Below, piece by piece: positions 45,675-56,416 of a stretch of 64,000 nt of DNA (within the stretch, counting starts at the first letter, position 1; every line of letters begins with the position of its first letter). The DNA lies in assembly GCF_035593265.1 (NCBI RefSeq), contig NZ_CP141614.1, positions 992,001-1,056,000 of the forward strand. Direction: 5' to 3'. The notes beneath the pieces were generated by a model. That model had not been told where the DNA came from and made no database searches. It saw nothing but the letters and a program-made list of their open reading frames with translations. Position numbers and translations under genes: made by a program. The DNA comes from Limnochorda sp. LNt (GTDB lineage: Bacteria > Bacillota > Limnochordia > Limnochordales > Geochordaceae).

Positions 45675-48600
45675 ATGCACGGAGCGGGAGTGCGGGATCG
45701 GGGACGCGTCTGGCAGCGGGTCGTCCCCTTGCTCGTGGCCCTCCTCGCCCACGGCAGCCTGACGGTCGCCGGGGCCCTGGCGGCCCCGGACCGGCCGCTC
45801 CACGTGGCCCTCATCTGGCACATGCATCAGCCCTACTACAAGGACCCGAGTTCCGGGATCTACCGGCTGCCCTGGGTGCGCATGCATGCCGTCAAGGACT
45901 ACTACGACATGGTGGCCATGCTCGAGGAGTACCCCCGGATGAGGGCGACGTTCAACCTGGTCCCATCGCTCGTCATGCAGCTCGAGGAGTACGTCGAGCG
46001 AGGCGCCAGGGACGTCTACCAGGTCCTGACGGAGAAGCGGCCGTCCGAGCTGACCGATGACGAGAAGGAGTTCGTCCTGCGGCGCTTCTTCGATGCCAAC
46101 TGGGACAACGTCATCAAGCGATACCCCCCATACTGGGAGCTCCTCCAGAAGCGGGGCACCTCGGGCACGGACGCCGAGATCGCCCGAGCCAGGGAGACCT
46201 TCACCGATCAGGACTTCCTCGACTTGCAGGTCTGGTTCAACCTGGCCTGGATCGACCCTGACCTCATCGCCGAAGACCCCACGATGAGGGCCCTCGTGGA
46301 GAGGGGCTCGGGCTTCACGGAGTCCGACAAGCGTGCGGTGCTCGCCAAGCATCGGGAGATCATGGGCCGGGTCATCGGTGTCTACCGCCGGCTCATGGAG
46401 AAAGGCCAGATCGAGGTCATCACCTCGCCCTTCTACCATCCCATCCTGCCGCTGGTGTGGGACACCAACACGGCCCGCCTGGCGAGCCCGTCGCTCAGGC
46501 TCCCATCCCATCGCTTCGCCCAGCCGGGGGACGTCGTCACACAGCTCGAGAGGGCGGTGGCCTTCTACCGGGAGCGGTTCGGACGGGATCCGGCCGGACT
46601 GTGGCCTTCCGAGCAGGCGGTCGGCCAGGGGATCGTCAGCTATGTGGCCAGCGCGGGCTTCCGGTGGATGGTGAGCAGCGAGGGCGTGCTGGCTCGGTCC
46701 CTTGGGGTCGAGCTGCGTGGCACCAGTGGCGAGCTGCTGAGGCCCGAGGTGCTGTACCGTCCCTACTGGGTCACGGCCGGCGGACGGCAGGTGGCGATGC
46801 TCTTCCGTGACCTCGTGCTGTCCGACCGTATCGGCTTCCAGTACGCCGGGATGCCGGCCGCTCGGGCGGTCGACGACCTCATCGGCTACTTGCACGCCAT
46901 GCAGCGCCGTCTGTCCGACCAGCCGGGGGAGTTCGTGGTCACCATCGCCCTCGACGGGGAGAACGCCTGGGAGTGGTACGCCAACGATGGCAAAGAGTTC
47001 CTCGACGAGCTCTACCGGCGCCTCAGCACCGATCCGCGGCTCGAGCCCGTCACCGTCAGCGAGTATCTGGCGGCCCACCCGCCCCAGGACGTCATCGAGT
47101 CGCTGTGGACGGGCTCCTGGATCGCCGACAACCTGGAGACCTGGATCGGCGAGGAGGAGGAGAACCGCGCCTGGGACTACCTCTACGAGGCCCGCACGGC
47201 GCTGGTGCGCTACCAGGCCTTGCACTACGACGACCCCGGTGCCGAGGCCCGCATCCAGGCCGCTCTGGAGCACCTGTACGCCGCCGAGGGTAGCGACTGG
47301 TTCTGGTGGTACGGGGCCGACCAGGACTCGGGCAACGACCCGGCGTTCGACGCGCTGTTTCGGGCGCACCTGGCGGCGGTCTACGAGTCCATCGGTCAGC
47401 CCGTGCCCGAGTATCTGGAGTTGCCCATCGTGGCTCCCCCGTTGGCCAGGGCCGCCTCGGCGACCACCGGGCGGCTGACGGCGCGGGTGGACGGGGCCGT
47501 CGGCGCGGGCGAGTGGGACCAGGGCCTTCGCTTCGACGCCGAGGCCCGGCCAGACAGCCCGGTCGACGCCCTGTGGGTGGGTTACGACGACGGGCGCCTC
47601 TACCTGCGGGCCGATCTGAGCGCACCGGCCAGCCGCCTGCGTGACACCGGCACGGATCTGCGGGTCTACCTGTCGCATCCCCGGTACCTGACGGTCAACG
47701 CCCGGCCGCGCGAGGCCTCGCAGGGGCAGGGTGCTCCTCCGCTCGGCTTCGGGATCGCCTACGAGCTGCGAGCCGACCTGGGGCGCACGCCCGTGCGCCT
47801 GCAACTGTCGAGGGCGCTGGGTGGCGGCGAGTGGGAGCTGGTGGCCGAGCTGCCCGAGGAGGCGGTCGCGCTCGGTGACGCACCGGACGGCCGGGGGGCC
47901 GTGCTGGAGGCCGCTGTCTCGTGGGGCGAGGTGGAGCTCCAGGCTGCCGAAGCCGTCATGCTGGCCCTCGTCGCCTTCGACGGGGCGGGCGGGGTGCACG
48001 TCCTTCCCTCCGCGGGGCCAGTGCGCGTGCAGGTGCCCGAGGTGATCCGGGGCGACCTGGTCTTCGCGTGGGACGACCCCGTCGGCGACGACCACGGACC
48101 GGGCACCTACGTCTACCCGGGTAACGCGGTCTTCCAGCCGGGCGTCTTCGACCTGAGGCGCTTCGAGGTCTTCGACGAGGGCAACGACGTCGTCTTCAAG
48201 GTGTGGCTGGCCGGCCCCATCGACAACGTCTGGGGTTCGCCCATCGGCCTCTCGGTACAGACCATCGACATCTACCTGGACACCGACCGGGTGCCGGGCT
48301 CGGGAGAGACGGCGGCCCTGGGAGGCCGGCGGGCCACGTTCGCCCCGGAGTGGGCGTGGGAGTACGCCATCTGGGTGGAAGGGTGGAACCAGCGCGTCTT
48401 CGCCGCCGACGCGGTCCAAGGTGGAGCCGCACCGGAAGGGGGAGCGGGGCCGCTGCGGGTCAGCGTGGATGCCGCCGAGCGCTCCGTGACGGTGCGGGTG
48501 CCCAAGGCGGTCATCGGCGAGCCGCGACCCAGCTGGGGGTACCAGGTGCTGATCCTGGGGCAGGAGGGCTACCCCGAGGGCGACTCGCTCAGGGTCCGGG

Positions 48601-48800
48601 AGGTCAAGGCCCATCGCGCGGAGTGGCGATTCGGTGGTGGCGACGATGGCTCCTGGGACCCCAACGTCATCGACATGCTGGCACCATCGGGCACCACGCA
48701 GGAGGCCATCCTGAGCGCCTACAGCGTGACCGGGCAGCGTCTGGCCGTCGTGCCGATGGTGTCGGGCAGCGGGCCTCAGGAGGCCGGGACGTCGCGGTGA
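45675..48800 (+). CDS. Secreted GH57 family glycoside hydrolase (amylopullulanase-like)
   Basis: A 1041-residue exported enzyme for alpha-glucan breakdown. ATG 45675 follows AGGGAGG. Signal peptide: VVPLLVALLAHGSLTVAGAL. The GH57 barrel begins with HVALIWHMHQPYYKDPSSGI; ITSPFYHPILPLVWD, the nucleophile region GLWPSEQAVGQGIV near residue 308 and VTIALDGENAWEWYANDGKE near residue 424 with the putative acid/base Asp follow; GSDWFWWYGADQDSGNDPAF closes the catalytic part. Residues about 600-1041 comprise two beta-rich modules; the second (VFAWDDPVGDDHGPGTYVYP onward) is a glucodextranase-C/DOMON-like carbohydrate-binding domain. Its stop overlaps the LacI-type regulator start. Substrate could be starch, glycogen or pullulan. 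Confidence 0.9.
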   Translation: MHGAGVRDRGRVWQRVVPLLVALLAHGSLTVAGALAAPDRPLHVALIWHMHQPYYKDPSSGIYRLPWVRMHAVKDYYDMVAMLEEYPRMRATFNLVPSLVMQLEEYVERGARDVYQVLTEKRPSELTDDEKEFVLRRFFDANWDNVIKRYPPYWELLQKRGTSGTDAEIARARETFTDQDFLDLQVWFNLAWIDPDLIAEDPTMRALVERGSGFTESDKRAVLAKHREIMGRVIGVYRRLMEKGQIEVITSPFYHPILPLVWDTNTARLASPSLRLPSHRFAQPGDVVTQLERAVAFYRERFGRDPAGLWPSEQAVGQGIVSYVASAGFRWMVSSEGVLARSLGVELRGTSGELLRPEVLYRPYWVTAGGRQVAMLFRDLVLSDRIGFQYAGMPAARAVDDLIGYLHAMQRRLSDQPGEFVVTIALDGENAWEWYANDGKEFLDELYRRLSTDPRLEPVTVSEYLAAHPPQDVIESLWTGSWIADNLETWIGEEEENRAWDYLYEARTALVRYQALHYDDPGAEARIQAALEHLYAAEGSDWFWWYGADQDSGNDPAFDALFRAHLAAVYESIGQPVPEYLELPIVAPPLARAASATTGRLTARVDGAVGAGEWDQGLRFDAEARPDSPVDALWVGYDDGRLYLRADLSAPASRLRDTGTDLRVYLSHPRYLTVNARPREASQGQGAPPLGFGIAYELRADLGRTPVRLQLSRALGGGEWELVAELPEEAVALGDAPDGRGAVLEAAVSWGEVELQAAEAVMLALVAFDGAGGVHVLPSAGPVRVQVPEVIRGDLVFAWDDPVGDDHGPGTYVYPGNAVFQPGVFDLRRFEVFDEGNDVVFKVWLAGPIDNVWGSPIGLSVQTIDIYLDTDRVPGSGETAALGGRRATFAPEWAWEYAIWVEGWNQRVFAADAVQGGAAPEGGAGPLRVSVDAAERSVTVRVPKAVIGEPRPSWGYQVLILGQEGYPEGDSLRVREVKAHRAEWRFGGGDDGSWDPNVIDMLAPSGTTQEAILSAYSVTGQRLAVVPMVSGSGPQEAGTSR

Positions 48801-49909
48801 GCACCTCGGGGCGGGCCAGTGCCCGGAGACGGGGCCAGGCGAGCGCGACCGGTTCGCGGGCGTTTGCTAGCGAGGGACGAGTCACCATCCGGGACGTGGC
48901 TCGACTGGCCCAGGTCTCGCCATCCACCGTCTCCCGGGCCATGGCTGGCAACCCGCGCATCAGCGAGGCGACCCGGGCGCGGGTGCTGGAGGCCATGGAG
49001 CGCCTGGGCTACCGGCCCAACGCTATTGCCCGCAGCCTGGTCACGAGGACGTCCCGAACGTTGGGGATCGTGCTGTACCGGCCCGCCGACGAGGCCTTCG
49101 CCCATCCCTTCTTCGCGGAGGCGCTGCGGGGCGTGGCGAGCGTGGCACAGGCCAACGGCTACAGCCTGCTCGTCACCACGGCCGAGACGTACGAGATGGA
49201 GGCCCAGCAGTGCCTGGCCATGCTGGAGGAGCGCAGGGCCGACGGCGCCGTGCTGCTGGCCTCGCGCTCCTCCGACCCGCTGGTGGCCAGCCTGCTGCAG
49301 CGGCAGCATCCCTTCGTCGTGCTGGGCCGGGTCCCCGACCGAAGGTCCGTCTACTGGGTCAACAACGACAACTTCCAGGCGGCTGCCATGGTGGTGCTCC
49401 ATCTGCTCCAGCTCGGGCACCGAGAGCTGGCCGTGGTGGGAGGCCGGCCCGAGTTGGTGGTGACGCAGGACCGACTGGAGGGCGTCACCTCCACCTTGCA
49501 GGAGGCGGGCTTGGGCCTGGCCCCCGAGCGGATCGCGCTCGGCGACTTCACGTGGGAGCACGGCTACCGGGAGACGTCCCGCCTGCTGGCCCAAGGTCGG
49601 CCTCCCACCGCGATCGTCGCCATGGACGACGTGCTGGCCGCAGGCGTGATACGGGCCGCCCGAGAGCGGGGCCTCGAGATCCCCCGGGACCTCTCCGTCG
49701 TCGGGTTCAACGACGACCCGATGGCCCAGCTCCTGACCCCGCCCTTGACCACCGTGCGCATCCCGGCGAGGGAGCTCGGCGAAGCGGCGGCACGTCAGCT
49801 CATCGACCGCCTCGATGGCAGGATACCCCCCGTGCGCCACGTCGTCCTGCCCGTCGAGCTGGTGGTGAGGGGTACGACCGGCCCCCCGCCGGCTCGGGGC
49901 GTGAGTTAG
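48797..49909 (+). CDS. LacI/GalR-family transcriptional regulator
   Basis: A 370-residue sugar-responsive regulator. GTG 48797 overlaps the GH57 stop (GTGA), giving a 28-residue Arg/Ser-rich tail before the headpiece IRDVARLAQVSPSTVSRA, then NPRISEATRARVLEAMERLG and YRPNAIARSL (hinge). The ligand domain shows HPFFAEALRGVASVAQANGY, HPFVVLGRVPDRRSV, DDVLAAGVIRAARERGLEIP and SVVGFNDDPMAQLLTPPLTT. Located between secreted glucanase and MalEFG, it probably controls both through the operators at 45588-45634. No operator copy was seen before malE. Confidence 0.94.
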   Translation: MSTSGRASARRRGQASATGSRAFASEGRVTIRDVARLAQVSPSTVSRAMAGNPRISEATRARVLEAMERLGYRPNAIARSLVTRTSRTLGIVLYRPADEAFAHPFFAEALRGVASVAQANGYSLLVTTAETYEMEAQQCLAMLEERRADGAVLLASRSSDPLVASLLQRQHPFVVLGRVPDRRSVYWVNNDNFQAAAMVVLHLLQLGHRELAVVGGRPELVVTQDRLEGVTSTLQEAGLGLAPERIALGDFTWEHGYRETSRLLAQGRPPTAIVAMDDVLAAGVIRAARERGLEIPRDLSVVGFNDDPMAQLLTPPLTTVRIPARELGEAAARQLIDRLDGRIPPVRHVVLPVELVVRGTTGPPPARGVS

Positions 49910-50019
49910 CGAGGCCGGGGTCGGGGCCGGCGAAGGGGGTGAGCTCCGGGGGCTGGTCGTCACGTCGATGAGACGGGCGTAAGGCACGTAGGACGGGCCA
50001 TGCGGAAGGAGGAGCCTTG

Positions 50020-51237
50020 ATGCGCATCGTCAGCAGGCTTCGGGACGTGCTGACCGTGGCCTTGTCGGTCGCGCTGGTATCGACCTTGAGCTTGGGAGCG
50101 GCGGCGGCCGAGGAACGCCTGGTCATCTGGTCGAGCGAGGCCCAGGTGCCGGCGCTTCTGCCCATGGCGCAGCAGTTCGAGGAGATGTACGGGATCCCGG
50201 TCCAGGTGACGGAGCTCGGCTTCGGCGACATCCGGGCCAACTTCAGCGTCGCCGCCCCGACGGGCGAGGGCCCCGATCTGATCGTCGGCGCTCACGACTG
50301 GGTGGGGGAACTGGCCCGCAACGGGTTGCTGGAGCCCATCCAGCTGACGCCGGCCGAGCGCGAGGAGTTCACCGAGGTGGCCCTGGACGGCTTCACCTAC
50401 GGGGGCCAGCTCTACGGCATCCCCTATGCCATCGAGGCCATCGCCATCATCTACAACAAGGAGCTGGTCCCGACGCCCCCTGCCACCTTCGACGAGCTGT
50501 TGTCCGTCGCTCGCCGGTTGACGGATCGTAACCGCCGCCAGTACGGCTTCCTCTATCCCAACACGGACGCCTATCACTCCTTCCCGTTCCTCTCGGCGTA
50601 CGGCGGCTACATCTTCCGCTTCACGGAGCAGGGCTTCGACCCCGGCGACGTGGGACTCGACAGCCCCGGGGCCATCCAGGGGGCCCGCATCATCCAGCGG
50701 CTGGCCGTCGAGGGCCTGGTGCCCCAGGGGACGGACTACCAGACCATGCAGGGACTCTTCACCCAGGGGCAGGCCGGCATGATGATGACGGGACCCTGGG
50801 AGGTCGACAACGTCAAGCGCGCGAGGATCAACTACGGCGTCGCCAAGCTTCCGACGTTCGACGGCAACGTGGCGCGTCCGTTCGTCGGAGCCCAGGGGTT
50901 CATGATCAACCGGTTCAGCCCCAACAAGATCCTCGCCATGGAGTTCCTGCGCGAGTTCATCATGACCAAGGAGGGCCAGCTGGCCATCTGGCGAGAGGAC
51001 CCGCGCATCCCCGCGTTGCGGGCGGCCTTCGAGGAGGTGGCCGACGATCCCGACATCGCGGCCTTCGGCGCCAGCGCCGCGGACGGCATCCCCATGCCCA
51101 ACATCCCGGAGATGGCGGCGGTCTGGGGAGCGCTGGGCGACAAGCTGACGCTCATCGTCAACGGGGAGCAGGACCCCGAGTCGGCGATGAAAGACGCGGC
51201 GCGCCAGGTGCGTGACACGCTCGCGGCGGGTCGGTAG
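50020..51237 (+). CDS. malE: Maltose/maltodextrin-binding protein
   Basis: A 405-residue SBP family 1 protein. ATG 50020 follows GGAAGGAGGAG. The signal peptide (VLTVALSVALVSTLSLGAAA) has no lipobox cysteine. Mature start EERLVIWSSEAQVPALLPMA, GPDLIVGAHDWVGELARNGL, YGGQLYGIPYAIEAIAIIYN and LFTQGQAGMMMTGPWEVDNV are MalE family segments, the last with the ligand-stacking Trp. Length and order match maltodextrin-binding proteins of MalE type. First gene of the importer operon; a hairpin follows before malF. Confidence 0.92.
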   Translation: MRIVSRLRDVLTVALSVALVSTLSLGAAAAEERLVIWSSEAQVPALLPMAQQFEEMYGIPVQVTELGFGDIRANFSVAAPTGEGPDLIVGAHDWVGELARNGLLEPIQLTPAEREEFTEVALDGFTYGGQLYGIPYAIEAIAIIYNKELVPTPPATFDELLSVARRLTDRNRRQYGFLYPNTDAYHSFPFLSAYGGYIFRFTEQGFDPGDVGLDSPGAIQGARIIQRLAVEGLVPQGTDYQTMQGLFTQGQAGMMMTGPWEVDNVKRARINYGVAKLPTFDGNVARPFVGAQGFMINRFSPNKILAMEFLREFIMTKEGQLAIWREDPRIPALRAAFEEVADDPDIAAFGASAADGIPMPNIPEMAAVWGALGDKLTLIVNGEQDPESAMKDAARQVRDTLAAGR

Positions 51238-51319: not shown

Positions 51320-52927
51320 TTGCGGACGCCAGTCACGGGACGAGGGGATCTCCGACCAGCCGCACCCTACGGTGGGCTGGCGCGGGGAGTGGGCCACCTG
51401 GCGAGGCTGCTGGCGCTGGGGACGCTGGATGCGCTCGGCGCCTGGTTGGCGGCGCGCCTGTACCTCGACGGCGCTGTCTGGCCGGCCGTGGCACTGGTGG
51501 CGGGCCTGGTGGGGACGACGTGGGTCTTCACCAGCCGGCGGGCCTACCCGCTGCGGTACGTGTGGCCCGGACTGGTCTTCTTCACCATCCTGGTGGTCTA
51601 CCCCATCGGCTACACGATAGCGGTTGCCTTCACCAACTACGGCACGGGCCACCTGCTCTCCAAGCGCCAGGTCATCGAGCAGTTCGAGTCGGCCCTGTAC
51701 GTGCCCGAGGGCGCGAGTCGGGTGCCGTACGCGGCCTTCGAGGGACCCTCGGGCACCATCGAGCTGGTCGCCCGCGTGGGGCCGGAGCGGTGGCTCCTGT
51801 TGAAGGATGACCGTGCGGAGGTCCTCGACCCCCAGGAGGCGGGTGTGGAGGACCTCGATGGGGACGGCCGGGCCGAGCGCTTCGGAGGGCGAACGGCCCT
51901 GACCGGCGCGCAACTGGCTCGCAGGCTCTCGCAGCTGCGTGCGGCGCGCTTCGAATGGGGCGACTCGGTCCTGCGGGTGGTGAGCCTGAGAGACCTGGAG
52001 CAGGCGCGGCACGCCTACGATTACGACCCGGCGTCCGATACGCTGGTGGACCGCCGCACGGGCGATGTCTACCGGCCCGTCAAGGGCTACTTCACCAATG
52101 ACGTGGGACAATTCCTGGAGCCCGGCTTCGTCGCGCCGGTCGGGCTCGAGAATTTCGTCCGGCTCTTCACCGATCCCGCCATCTCGCGGCCGTTCGTCAG
52201 GGTCTTCGTCTGGACCTTCGTCTGGGCCGGCCTCACGGTTGCCATCCAGTTCGTCGCGGGCCTGGCCCTGGCGCTGCTGCTCGACGACCCGTACCTGCGC
52301 CTGCGCAACCTCTACCGGAGCATCCTCATCCTCCCGTACGCCATCCCGGCCTTCATCTCGGCCCTGATCTGGGTCGGCCTGCTCAACACCGAGGTGGGGG
52401 TCATCAACGACATCCTGCAGGGCCTCTTCGGCATCGGACGGATCCCGTGGCTCCAAAACCCGTTTTGGGCCAGGGTGGCCCTCTTTCTGGTCAACCTCTG
52501 GCTCGGCTATCCTTACATGATGATCGTCACGCTGGGGGCCTTGCAGAGCATCCCGTCGGAGCTGTACGAGGCGGCGCTGGTGGACGGCGCCCGCCCATGG
52601 GACGTGCTGCGGACCGTGACGTTGCCGTTGTTGATGGTGGCGGTCTCGCCGCTTCTGGTGGGGTCCTTCGCCTTCAACTTCAACAACTTCAACGTCATCT
52701 ACCTGGTGACGGGCGGCGGGCCGCCGATGGCAGGGGCCCAGACCCCCGCCGGGCACACCGACATCCTCATCTCCTACACCTACCGCCTCGCCTTCCAGGG
52801 GGGACAGGGCACGCAGTTCGGGTTCGCAGCGGCCATCTCCATGCTCATCTTCGTCATCGTGGCCGTGGTGAGTGCCATCAACTTCCGCATGACCGGCGCC
52901 TTCGAGAGGGTGAGCGAGAATGTATAG
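51320..52927 (+). CDS. malF: Maltose-type ABC permease MalF
   Basis: A 535-residue permease. TTG 51320 follows GGAGGCGAG. Two N-terminal hydrophobic hairpins precede VWPGLVFFTILVVYPIGYTI; a periplasmic P2-like region of about 150 residues (residues 115-265; including DPQEAGVEDLDGDGRAERFG) separates helix 3 from the membrane core, as in MalF proteins. The core ends with the EAA loop (LYEAALVDGARPWDVLRTVT), and TLGALQSIPSELYEAALVDG is canonical. GGGPPMAGAQTPAGHTDILI is the typical MalF loop near the C-terminus. It overlaps malG by 8 bases. Confidence 0.94.
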   Translation: MRTPVTGRGDLRPAAPYGGLARGVGHLARLLALGTLDALGAWLAARLYLDGAVWPAVALVAGLVGTTWVFTSRRAYPLRYVWPGLVFFTILVVYPIGYTIAVAFTNYGTGHLLSKRQVIEQFESALYVPEGASRVPYAAFEGPSGTIELVARVGPERWLLLKDDRAEVLDPQEAGVEDLDGDGRAERFGGRTALTGAQLARRLSQLRAARFEWGDSVLRVVSLRDLEQARHAYDYDPASDTLVDRRTGDVYRPVKGYFTNDVGQFLEPGFVAPVGLENFVRLFTDPAISRPFVRVFVWTFVWAGLTVAIQFVAGLALALLLDDPYLRLRNLYRSILILPYAIPAFISALIWVGLLNTEVGVINDILQGLFGIGRIPWLQNPFWARVALFLVNLWLGYPYMMIVTLGALQSIPSELYEAALVDGARPWDVLRTVTLPLLMVAVSPLLVGSFAFNFNNFNVIYLVTGGGPPMAGAQTPAGHTDILISYTYRLAFQGGQGTQFGFAAAISMLIFVIVAVVSAINFRMTGAFERVSENV

Positions 52928-53777
52928 ACGGCCGGGCCTGCTGGGTCAGGTATGGCGCCAGGCGTTGGCCCTCGCAGCCGTCGCGTTCGCGCTCTTCCCG
53001 GTGGCGTGGATCCTCTCGGCATCCCTCAGCCCCACCAACACCCTGGTGGGACAGCGCCTCATCCCCAAGCAACCCTCTCTCGAACACTATCGAGAGCTGT
53101 TCTCCAACCCCGCCCACCCCTTCGGCTTGTGGCTGTGGAACAGCATCAAGATCTCTGCCATGGCCGCTGCGCTCACCATGGCCATGGCGGCACTGGCGGC
53201 CTACGCCTTCTCGCGGTTCCGCTTCAGAGGGCGGCGGGCCGGGCTGTTGACCTTGCTGCTGGTGCAGATGTTTCCCCAGATGCTGGCCATGGTCGCCATC
53301 TACCTGATGCTGCTCGGCATCGGGCGCTACTTCCCGGCTATGGGCATCAACACCCACGGAGGCCTCGTCCTGGTCTACCTCGGTGGGGCGCTGGGCTTCA
53401 ACACCTATCTCATCAAGGGGTACTTCGACACCATCCCGCGCTCCATCGAGGAGTCGGCCATGATGGACGGCGCGACGCCGTTTCAAGCCTTCCTCCACGT
53501 CATCCTGCCCCTCGCCCGGCCGGTGCTGGCGGTCATCTTCCTGCTGGCGTTCATCGGCACCTACTCCGACTTCCTGCTGGCCAGCATCCTGCTGAGGGAC
53601 CGAGATCTGCTTACCTTCGCCGTCGGGCTCCGGATCTTCATCACCGGTCAGTACTCGACACGGTGGGGCATGTTCGCCGCGGCCTCGCTGGTCGGGGCGT
53701 TGCCCGTGGCGACCATCTTCTACCTGCTGCGCAACCAGTTCGTCTCGGGCCTGACGCAGGGGGCGGTCAAGGGATGA
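52920..53777 (+). CDS. malG: Maltose-type ABC permease MalG
   Basis: A 285-residue permease, the smaller partner of MalF. ATG 52920 lies in the end of malF. Six helices are evident; AFALFPVAWILSASLSPTNT is the first, and AYAFSRFRFRGRRAGLLTLL leads to helix 3. The EAA loop is SIEESAMMDGATPFQAFLHV ending ILPLARPVLAV. TQGAVKG at the end is a MalG-type C-terminus. The stop overlaps the start of the GH13 gene (ATGA). No MalK-type ATPase is encoded in the window, so a shared MsmX-like ATPase elsewhere is expected. Confidence 0.94.
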   Translation: MYRRPGLLGQVWRQALALAAVAFALFPVAWILSASLSPTNTLVGQRLIPKQPSLEHYRELFSNPAHPFGLWLWNSIKISAMAAALTMAMAALAAYAFSRFRFRGRRAGLLTLLLVQMFPQMLAMVAIYLMLLGIGRYFPAMGINTHGGLVLVYLGGALGFNTYLIKGYFDTIPRSIEESAMMDGATPFQAFLHVILPLARPVLAVIFLLAFIGTYSDFLLASILLRDRDLLTFAVGLRIFITGQYSTRWGMFAAASLVGALPVATIFYLLRNQFVSGLTQGAVKG

Positions 53778-55684
53778 CCGCGGAGTCGGGGCCCCTGGTC
53801 GACCACCGGGCTGAGTGGCCCATGGCCTCCCAGCCCTCACCGGGGCGGCTGCGTGTCGTCTTGCGAAGCGCCCGAGGACAGGTCGCCGAGGCCTCCGTGG
53901 TCTGGGCGGACCGCTACGCCTGGCAGGTGGCGCTGCCGGCCACCGGCGGCGCCCGCTCGGCCTGGCAGGAGCGGCCTTGCCACCATGCGGGTCACGACGC
54001 GCACTGGGACTATTGGGAGGCGGAGCTGGAGCTGGCGAGCGGTCGCTTCGCCTACTGGTTTCGGGTCGTCTCGGCCTCCGGCGTCTGGTGGGTCGGCGAG
54101 GGCAGGATGGGGCGGGGTCGTGAGGGGGTGTGGCCCTTCGAGTGGCCTCATGCGCTGGCCGCCGAAGGGCCCCAGGTGCCCGAGTGGGCGCGCGGCGCTT
54201 TCTTCTACCAGATCTTCGTGGACCGCTTCTTCAATGGCGACCCCTCCAACGACCCGCCGGGGACCCGACCCTGGCCGGCCCGTCCCCTGGAGCCCGTGGC
54301 CAGGGGTTCCGGCATCTTCTACGGCGGCGACCTGGCGGGCGTCATGGCCAGGCTGCCGTACCTGGCGGAGCTGGGCGTGGATGCCATCTACCTGACGCCC
54401 ATCTTTCGCTCGCCCACCAACCACAAGTACGACACCGAGAGCTAGCTGGAGGTGGACCCGGCCTTCGGGACCGCCGAGACGCTGGCCGAGCTGACCCACC
54501 AGGCCCACCGCCACGGCATCCGGGTGCTTCTCGACCTGGTATTCAATCATTCGGGCGACCGCTTCTTCGCCTTCCAGGACCTCTTGATGCGGGGCGCCGC
54601 ATCCCCGTACCGAGATTGGTACTTCCCCCGCGGACTGCCCGTCATGCAGGAGCCGCCCAACTACGAGACCTTCGCCGACCACGTGGCGACCATGCCCAAG
54701 CTCAACACCGCGCACCCCGAGGTGCGCCGCTACCTGGTGGGCGTGGCCCGTCACTGGATCGAGCGGGCCGACGTGGACGGCTTCCGCCTTGACGTGGCCA
54801 ACGAGGTGGCGCGGGTGCTGTGGCGGGAGCTGATGGAGGCGGCGAAGGCCTCAAAGCCCGACGTCTTCGTGGTGGGCGAGGTGTGGCACCGCGCCTCGTC
54901 GTGGCTGCGGGACGGCTGCTTCCACAGCGTCATGAACTACCCCTGGCGCTCGGCCGTCATCGACTTCCTGGCCCGGGATGCCATCGGGCCGGCGGCGTTT
55001 TGGGAGTACCTGGAGGGGTTGCGTCTCGCCTACGCGCCCCCGGCCAGCGACGCCCTGGTCAACCTCATCGGGAGCCACGACACCCCTCGCTTCCTCACGC
55101 TGGCGGGCCGCCAGCTCTGGCGATTGCGCCTGGCGCTACTCTTCCTGTTTGCCTACCCGGGCATCGCGCAGATTTACTATGGCGACGAGGTGGCGATGGA
55201 GGGCGGGGACGACCCTGACTGCCGGCGGCCCATGGACTGGGAGCCGGGACCGGACGGACAGGCCGTGCGCGAGCTGGTGCGGGCCCTGGGGCAGGCGCGG
55301 CGGCGCCACCCGGCCCTGCGCACGGGGCGGCTGCGGCTGGCCGGCCTCGATTCTCGAGCCGGGGCCCTGGCCTTCTGGCGCATCCTGCCCGGGCAGGGAG
55401 CCTGCCTGGCGGTCCTCAACCGCGGCAACGAGCCCTGGCAGCTCCCGCTCGCCACTGCATGGCGGGCGGCCGGGCCGGACGCCTCGCTCCCGGGACCCGA
55501 GGCCATGCGGCTGGAGGTCACCACCGCCGGCGACGGTGCCTCGGGGCCCGTGCCCCCGGGCTCGGCGCCGGAGCCCGGAGGGGCCCTGATGGGTGAGGGC
55601 ATCTTGAGGGTGCCGCCCCGCACGGGCCTGCTCCTGTCGCTGGCCCCGACCGTCGGCCGCGAGGATCCGCCGGTCCGCCCGTGA
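53774..55684 (+). pseudogene. GH13 cyclomaltodextrinase/neopullulanase-type enzyme interrupted by one in-frame TAG
   Basis: Two open stretches lie in the same frame and together make one 636-codon GH13 protein: ATG 53774 to TAG 54443-54445, and the continuation to the stop at 55684. An N-terminal CBM34-like beta domain (LRVVLRSARGQVAEASVVWA, residues about 25-105) precedes the barrel (ARGAFFYQIFVDRFFNGDPS). The TAG is codon 224, in the family segment NHKYDTxSYxExDP, exactly where Tyr is expected (TAC/TAT). All catalytic parts remain downstream: VDGFRLDVANEV (nucleophile Asp), VFVVGEVWH (Glu) and IGSHDTPRFL (His-Asp). A downstream restart without the N-terminus would lack part of the barrel. 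No signal peptide: a cytosolic maltodextrin hydrolase. A single nonsense mutation or a base error explains it. Confidence 0.88.
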
Positions 55685-55711: not shown

Positions 55712-56416
55712 ATGGAGAGCATCGCCAATCGGCTGGCGTCGATCCGCCAGCGCATCGAGGCCGCGGCCCATGGCTGCGGCCGCAATCCGGCCGAGATAGG
55801 GCTGGTCGCCGTCAGCAAGGGGGTCGACCCGGACCGGATCCAGGAGGCCTACGCCTGCGGCCTGCACCTCTTCGGTGAGAACCGCGTGCAGGAGCTGGTG
55901 GCCAAGGTGGAGGCCCTGCAGGGCCGTGGCCTCGACGCCCTGGAGTGGCACATGGTCGGCCACCTGCAGCGCAACAAGGCCCGTCACGTCGCGCGTCACG
56001 TCACGGTACTGCACTCGCTGGACAGCCTGGCCCTGGCCCAGGAGCTGGATCGCCACCTGAGCCGGCTCGGACGTACGCTGGACGTCCTGGTGGAGGTCAA
56101 CGTCTCGGGCGAGCCGACCAAGTGGGGGGTCCACCCCGACGAGGCGCCAGCCCTGGTGCGAGCGGTGGCGTCCGTGCCGACCCTGCGGTTGGTGGGTCTG
56201 ATGACGGTGGGCCCGCGGACCGACGACCCGCAGGCGGTGCGGGCTGCCTTCCGCACGCTGCGGCACCTGCGGGATCGCATCCGCGACGAAGGGTGGGCGG
56301 GGCCTGCCTTCGCCCATCTGTCGATGGGGATGTCCTCCGACTTCGAGGTGGCCATCGAGGAGGGTGCCACCCTCCTCCGGATCGGGACGGCCCTCTTCGG
56401 CCCTCGAGCGGGGTGA
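55712..56416 (+). CDS. YggS/PLPBP family pyridoxal-phosphate homeostasis protein
   Basis: A 234-residue single-domain PLP-binding TIM-barrel. ATG 55712. The PLP lysine is in IGLVAVSKGVDPDRI; FGENRVQEL, WHMVGHLQRNKARHVARHV, VLVEVNVSGEPTKWGV, LMTVGPRTDD and AHLSMGMSSDFEVAIEEGAT with RIGTALFGPR complete the family pattern. It buffers intracellular pyridoxal phosphate and affects amino-acid balance. In many Bacillota yggS sits in a division gene cluster upstream of sepF; that context is absent here. Starts 27 bases after the GH13 gene. Confidence 0.95.
   Translation: MESIANRLASIRQRIEAAAHGCGRNPAEIGLVAVSKGVDPDRIQEAYACGLHLFGENRVQELVAKVEALQGRGLDALEWHMVGHLQRNKARHVARHVTVLHSLDSLALAQELDRHLSRLGRTLDVLVEVNVSGEPTKWGVHPDEAPALVRAVASVPTLRLVGLMTVGPRTDDPQAVRAAFRTLRHLRDRIRDEGWAGPAFAHLSMGMSSDFEVAIEEGATLLRIGTALFGPRAG

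Follow-up and report, generated by a model that had tools for sequence, protein, structure and literature searches.

A GH13 gene at the end of a maltodextrin importer operon in Limnochorda sp. LNt is interrupted by one in-frame TAG, which raises the question of whether the gene has been lost, whether the stop is a wrong base in the assembly or whether the cell translates through it. The locus lies in a stretch of 64,000 nucleotides, here called the window, from a genome of one contig (3,019,339 bases). The operon order is lacI-malE-malF-malG-GH13 with the GH13 gene last, and the importer context claimed in a preliminary description was confirmed by the identification of a LacI regulator, a solute-binding protein and two permeases. 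The genes of the region, by position in the window, are:

45675..48800, + strand: GH57 alpha-amylase with a glucodextranase C-terminal domain, upstream of the importer operon
48203..49909, + strand: lacI-family regulator, ending in TAG (mechanical open reading frame; homology from about residue 226, the real start lying further in)
50017..51237, + strand: malE-like solute-binding protein, ending in TAG
51320..52927, + strand: malF-like permease, ending in TAG
52920..53777, + strand: malG-like permease
53774..55684, + strand: interrupted GH13 gene of neopullulanase/cyclomaltodextrinase type, its start overlapping the malG stop (ATGA)
55712..56416, + strand: yggS (PLP-binding protein), downstream of GH13 and syntenic in the sister genus

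The yggS start lies 27 bases 3' of the end of the GH13 frame, and the same genome carries an intact GH13 paralogue at G000:916300.

On translation, the frame 53774-55684 comprises 636 codons and a terminal TGA, and the TAG at 54443-54445 is its sole internal stop. The two halves had been described as lying in one frame and joining across this codon. Indeed, they match consecutive parts of the Pfam Alpha-amylase profile (1-54, then 58-387), and reading through the stop raises the score to 237 bits, from 58 and 158 for the separate halves; the first half also matches Alpha-amylase_N. Within the gene we distinguish the following features:

53801..54091, + strand: N-terminal Ig-like (CBM34-type) domain (Pfam Alpha-amylase_N, residues 10-106)
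54209..55312, + strand: GH13 catalytic TIM barrel (Pfam Alpha-amylase), cut by the stop in its N-terminal part
54440..54442, + strand: AGC (Ser223), a codon that is otherwise Asp or Asn in 103 homologues
54443..54445, + strand: in-frame TAG replacing conserved Tyr224 (from translation and homologue comparison)
54692..54706, + strand: MPKLN motif, conserved region V, the neopullulanase-group signature
54791..54793, + strand: catalytic nucleophile Asp340, 3' of the stop
54878..54880, + strand: acid/base Glu369, 3' of the stop
55079..55081, + strand: transition-state Asp436, 3' of the stop

The last three residues, D340, E369 and D436, are invariant across 102 sequences; all are intact in the interrupted gene and, as the preliminary description had it, all lie downstream of the stop.

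We compared the interrupted codon with 23 same-class sequences, from homologues gathered in 40 related genomes, and with 80 further loci from a profile scan of GTDB genomes (103 homologues in total). The column reads TAC in 18, TAT in three, TTT in one and GAC in one of the former, and encodes Tyr in all 80 of the latter (TAT 55, TAC 25). Tyr is thus present in 101 of 103 homologues, in agreement with the earlier assignment of the stop to a family Tyr position. The preliminary description had also proposed looking for the same codon in related genomes: no homologue among the 103 has a stop there, and the matches of the 80 GTDB loci contain no internal stop at all. The TAG therefore interrupts a frame that relatives keep open, as expected for a nonsense pseudogene.

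Gene order from lacI to yggS (lacI-malE-malF-malG-GH13-yggS) is conserved in the sister-genus genome G002, where a one-piece GH13 orthologue occupies the same place, and in G003, which also has an orthologue. The nearest relative found shares 69-71% protein identity with the GH13 product. In the same-genus and sister-genus relatives there is no stop at this site, nor was the gene found in two parts, an arrangement that the preliminary description had set against its own reading. The same-genus genome G001 carries the orthologue behind an extra GH13 gene. Its operon is split over two contigs that, from matching end sequence, appear to meet in this second GH13 gene, between malG and the orthologue. 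The extra gene (L099:1-327 and L033; contigs C154 and C262) has a signal-like N-terminus, and the contigs break within it. In the draft genome G003, malE, the GH57 gene and the GH13 start each lie in two frames (L037, G003:C6:177000-195000), a pattern that points to frameshift errors in the draft.

The codon immediately 5' of the stop departs from the relatives as well. Column 223 holds Asp in 98 and Asn in five of the 103 homologues, and Ser (AGC) in the window; where relatives have GAC or GAT followed by TAC, the window has AGC TAG, about three base differences within six. The site is therefore a small local cluster of changes, and the earlier proposal of one base change holds for the stop codon itself but overlooked the neighbouring D-to-S change. 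At 61 columns conserved to at least 95% in 102 sequences, D223S, Y224stop and P465A are the gene's only departures; of these, P465A also occurs in G002 and G003 and is shared by the clade. The D223S change and the stop could reflect one multi-base mutation, two successive events (D-to-S first, the stop later) or a consensus error at this site. A template switch or gene conversion as the source of AGAGCTAGCTGG was considered and rejected, the sole other genomic copy (2880871) having unrelated flanks. A diffuse loss of conserved residues was likewise set aside: six departures, among them a G380D/D381G swap, were counted relative to 13 relatives, but with 101 homologues the D223-Y224 pair alone is prominent. 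The Asp380-Gly381 of the window (54911-54916) is Gly-Asp in the majority of homologues (of 80, 73 have the Gly and 65 the Asp). The stop itself sits within CTAG, a word strongly avoided in the window genome. CTAG occurs eight times in the window against 97 expected and 70 times in the 400 kb around it against about 363 expected, an avoidance of about five- to twelve-fold overall.

TAG serves as an ordinary stop in this genome, as had been noted from other genes. It terminates 17 of 59 checked genes (those with ends agreeing with G002), including lacI, malE and malF just upstream, and RF1 is present (537.7 bits). No CUA anticodon occurs among the 48 tRNAs found, and no PylS match exceeds the cut-off (best 29.9 bits versus 178, a weak match as in most control genomes), such that the pairing of a CUA tRNA with a cognate synthetase, on which recoding of UAG by Pyl or a suppressor tRNA depends, was not found in these searches. 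Taken together, these results mark TAG as an ordinary terminator and leave recoding unsupported. An internal TGA flagged in another GH13 of two relatives, taken up as a candidate for selenocysteine or other recoding in paralogues, was rejected because it falls in the match overhang, 5' of the likely start.

Functional readthrough or recoding, whereby some full-length enzyme would be made under the control of the stop, is thus very unlikely. A low dN/dS of the read-through frame and reports of in-frame stops under purifying selection in bacteria (PMC7918605) accord with it, but programmed readthrough predicts a stop conserved among relatives, and none of the 103 homologues has one; moreover, TAG is a common terminator here, and dN/dS covers the whole branch rather than the time since the stop arose. 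More doubtful still is the idea that UAG readthrough yields a small amount of full-length enzyme, with the stop setting the level of maltodextrin breakdown as a strain-specific dial. Least probable is a split enzyme made from two separate working genes, the second starting near GTG 54452. This GTG stands two codons past the stop with GGAGG beside it; however, GGAGG overlaps the GTG and so leaves no room for the spacing that a ribosome site needs, the TIM barrel would be cut internally, and no relative examined has a two-part gene.

The main rival of recent inactivation is a local sequencing or polishing error in the consensus, in which case the genome would have a sense codon and the GH13 gene would be intact. 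We regard this as unlikely, though clearly less so than readthrough. The 1.9-kb frame shows no second stop or frameshift, and GC3 is 0.89 and 0.92 on either side of the stop, similar to the neighbours. A single lesion, the stop, in 1.9 kb allows no more than about 0.01-0.05 substitutions per site of neutral drift, the bound varying with the assumed indel rate. In a codon model of five sequences, dN/dS was 0.027 on the window branch compared with 0.021 elsewhere, a coarse estimate with synonymous sites near saturation, and there was no signal of relaxed selection (lnL -7691.59 versus -7691.68, a gain of 0.09). Such an unrelaxed dN/dS is what a recent stop would give, but an intact gene masked by a wrong base would give it just as well. 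An error would also account for two neighbouring conserved codons being jointly aberrant and for a stop within an avoided word, and of 73 interrupted genes that were resequenced in M. smegmatis, 28 proved to be sequencing errors (PMC1852416). Against this, an error would require substitutions, whereas long-read errors are typically indels, and the frame is unbroken. When 400 kb of the window genome were compared with 400 kb of G002, no convincing internal stop other than the TAG at 54443-54445 emerged in a conserved true coding frame, indicating that the assembly is not error-ridden there; this count was screened rather than exact, the automatic rule for true versus shadow frames being imperfect, and the other matches with internal stops were shadow frames in the wrong strand or frame, set aside by eye.

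The likely origin of the sequence also speaks against an error. The sequenced strain is probably Geochorda subterranea LN, the genome of which was assembled from Nanopore reads and polished twice with Illumina data (PMC11456536). The window genome is closed and belongs to a family of Limnochordia that has two closed genomes, the other being G002. A GH57 gene adjoining the maltodextrin operon was described for LN, without a counterpart in L945 (PMC11456536); in the window a GH57 gene adjoins the operon, and G002 has none there. LN is reported to hydrolyse starch, dextrin and maltodextrin and to leave maltose unused, and L945 to use neither maltose nor maltodextrin (PMC11456536). If L945 is G002, its GH13 gene is intact and yet maltodextrin is not used, so the growth data do not decide the matter.

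Of the possibilities raised in the preliminary description (inactivation, base error or readthrough), recent inactivation thus fits best: in the sequenced strain, a nonsense mutation has probably inactivated the GH13 gene very recently. The ancestral product would have been a cytoplasmic neopullulanase/cyclomaltodextrinase-type enzyme cutting imported maltodextrins. A local mutation in the strain's lineage would then have replaced the conserved Asp-Tyr codons by Ser-stop, and translation would end after 223 residues. With termination 5' of all catalytic residues, this GH13 copy is, as far as the sequence can tell, almost certainly inactive, and would represent a very young pseudogene within an otherwise intact importer operon. 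Given a frame without decay, any loss must be very recent when set against the split from the nearest relative found; whole-branch dN/dS is no measure of the time since the stop arose. That the bases are correct and that the product is inactive are both inferred, and other hydrolases in the genome presumably cover the loss. Early termination would leave about 1.2 kb untranslated, and expression of yggS could drop by polarity if it lacks its own promoter.

If this reading is true, the operon, conserved in relatives, has very recently lost one step. If the window is Geochorda subterranea LN, the GH13 gene counted in the maltodextrin operon by the species description is interrupted here, which calls for caution in annotation; any explanation of growth on starch from this operon depends on the codon at 54443-54445.

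Compared with known enzymes, the best solved relative is 1bvz (alpha-amylase II/neopullulanase 2; phmmer E 1.9e-139, residues 10-554), and maltogenic amylase and cyclomaltodextrinase are also among the best. In common with these GH13_20 enzymes, the gene encodes a CBM34-type N-domain, the TIM barrel, the full catalytic Asp/Glu/Asp triad and MPKLN (as TMPKLNT, residues 306-312 of the read-through protein), a motif that marks the neopullulanase group in conserved region V (PMC9781549). Unlike them, it has Ser-stop in place of the Asp-Tyr that follows the HKYDT motif, and its reading frame is not continuous. Judged from sequence, the gene is thus a descendant of GH13_20 that encodes no working member as it stands. 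Young bacterial pseudogenes and interrupted coding sequences offer a further parallel, sharing a single nonsense lesion, intact relatives and no further decay; if the lesion is real in the strain, we see no difference from them, and the event is of an ordinary, known kind.
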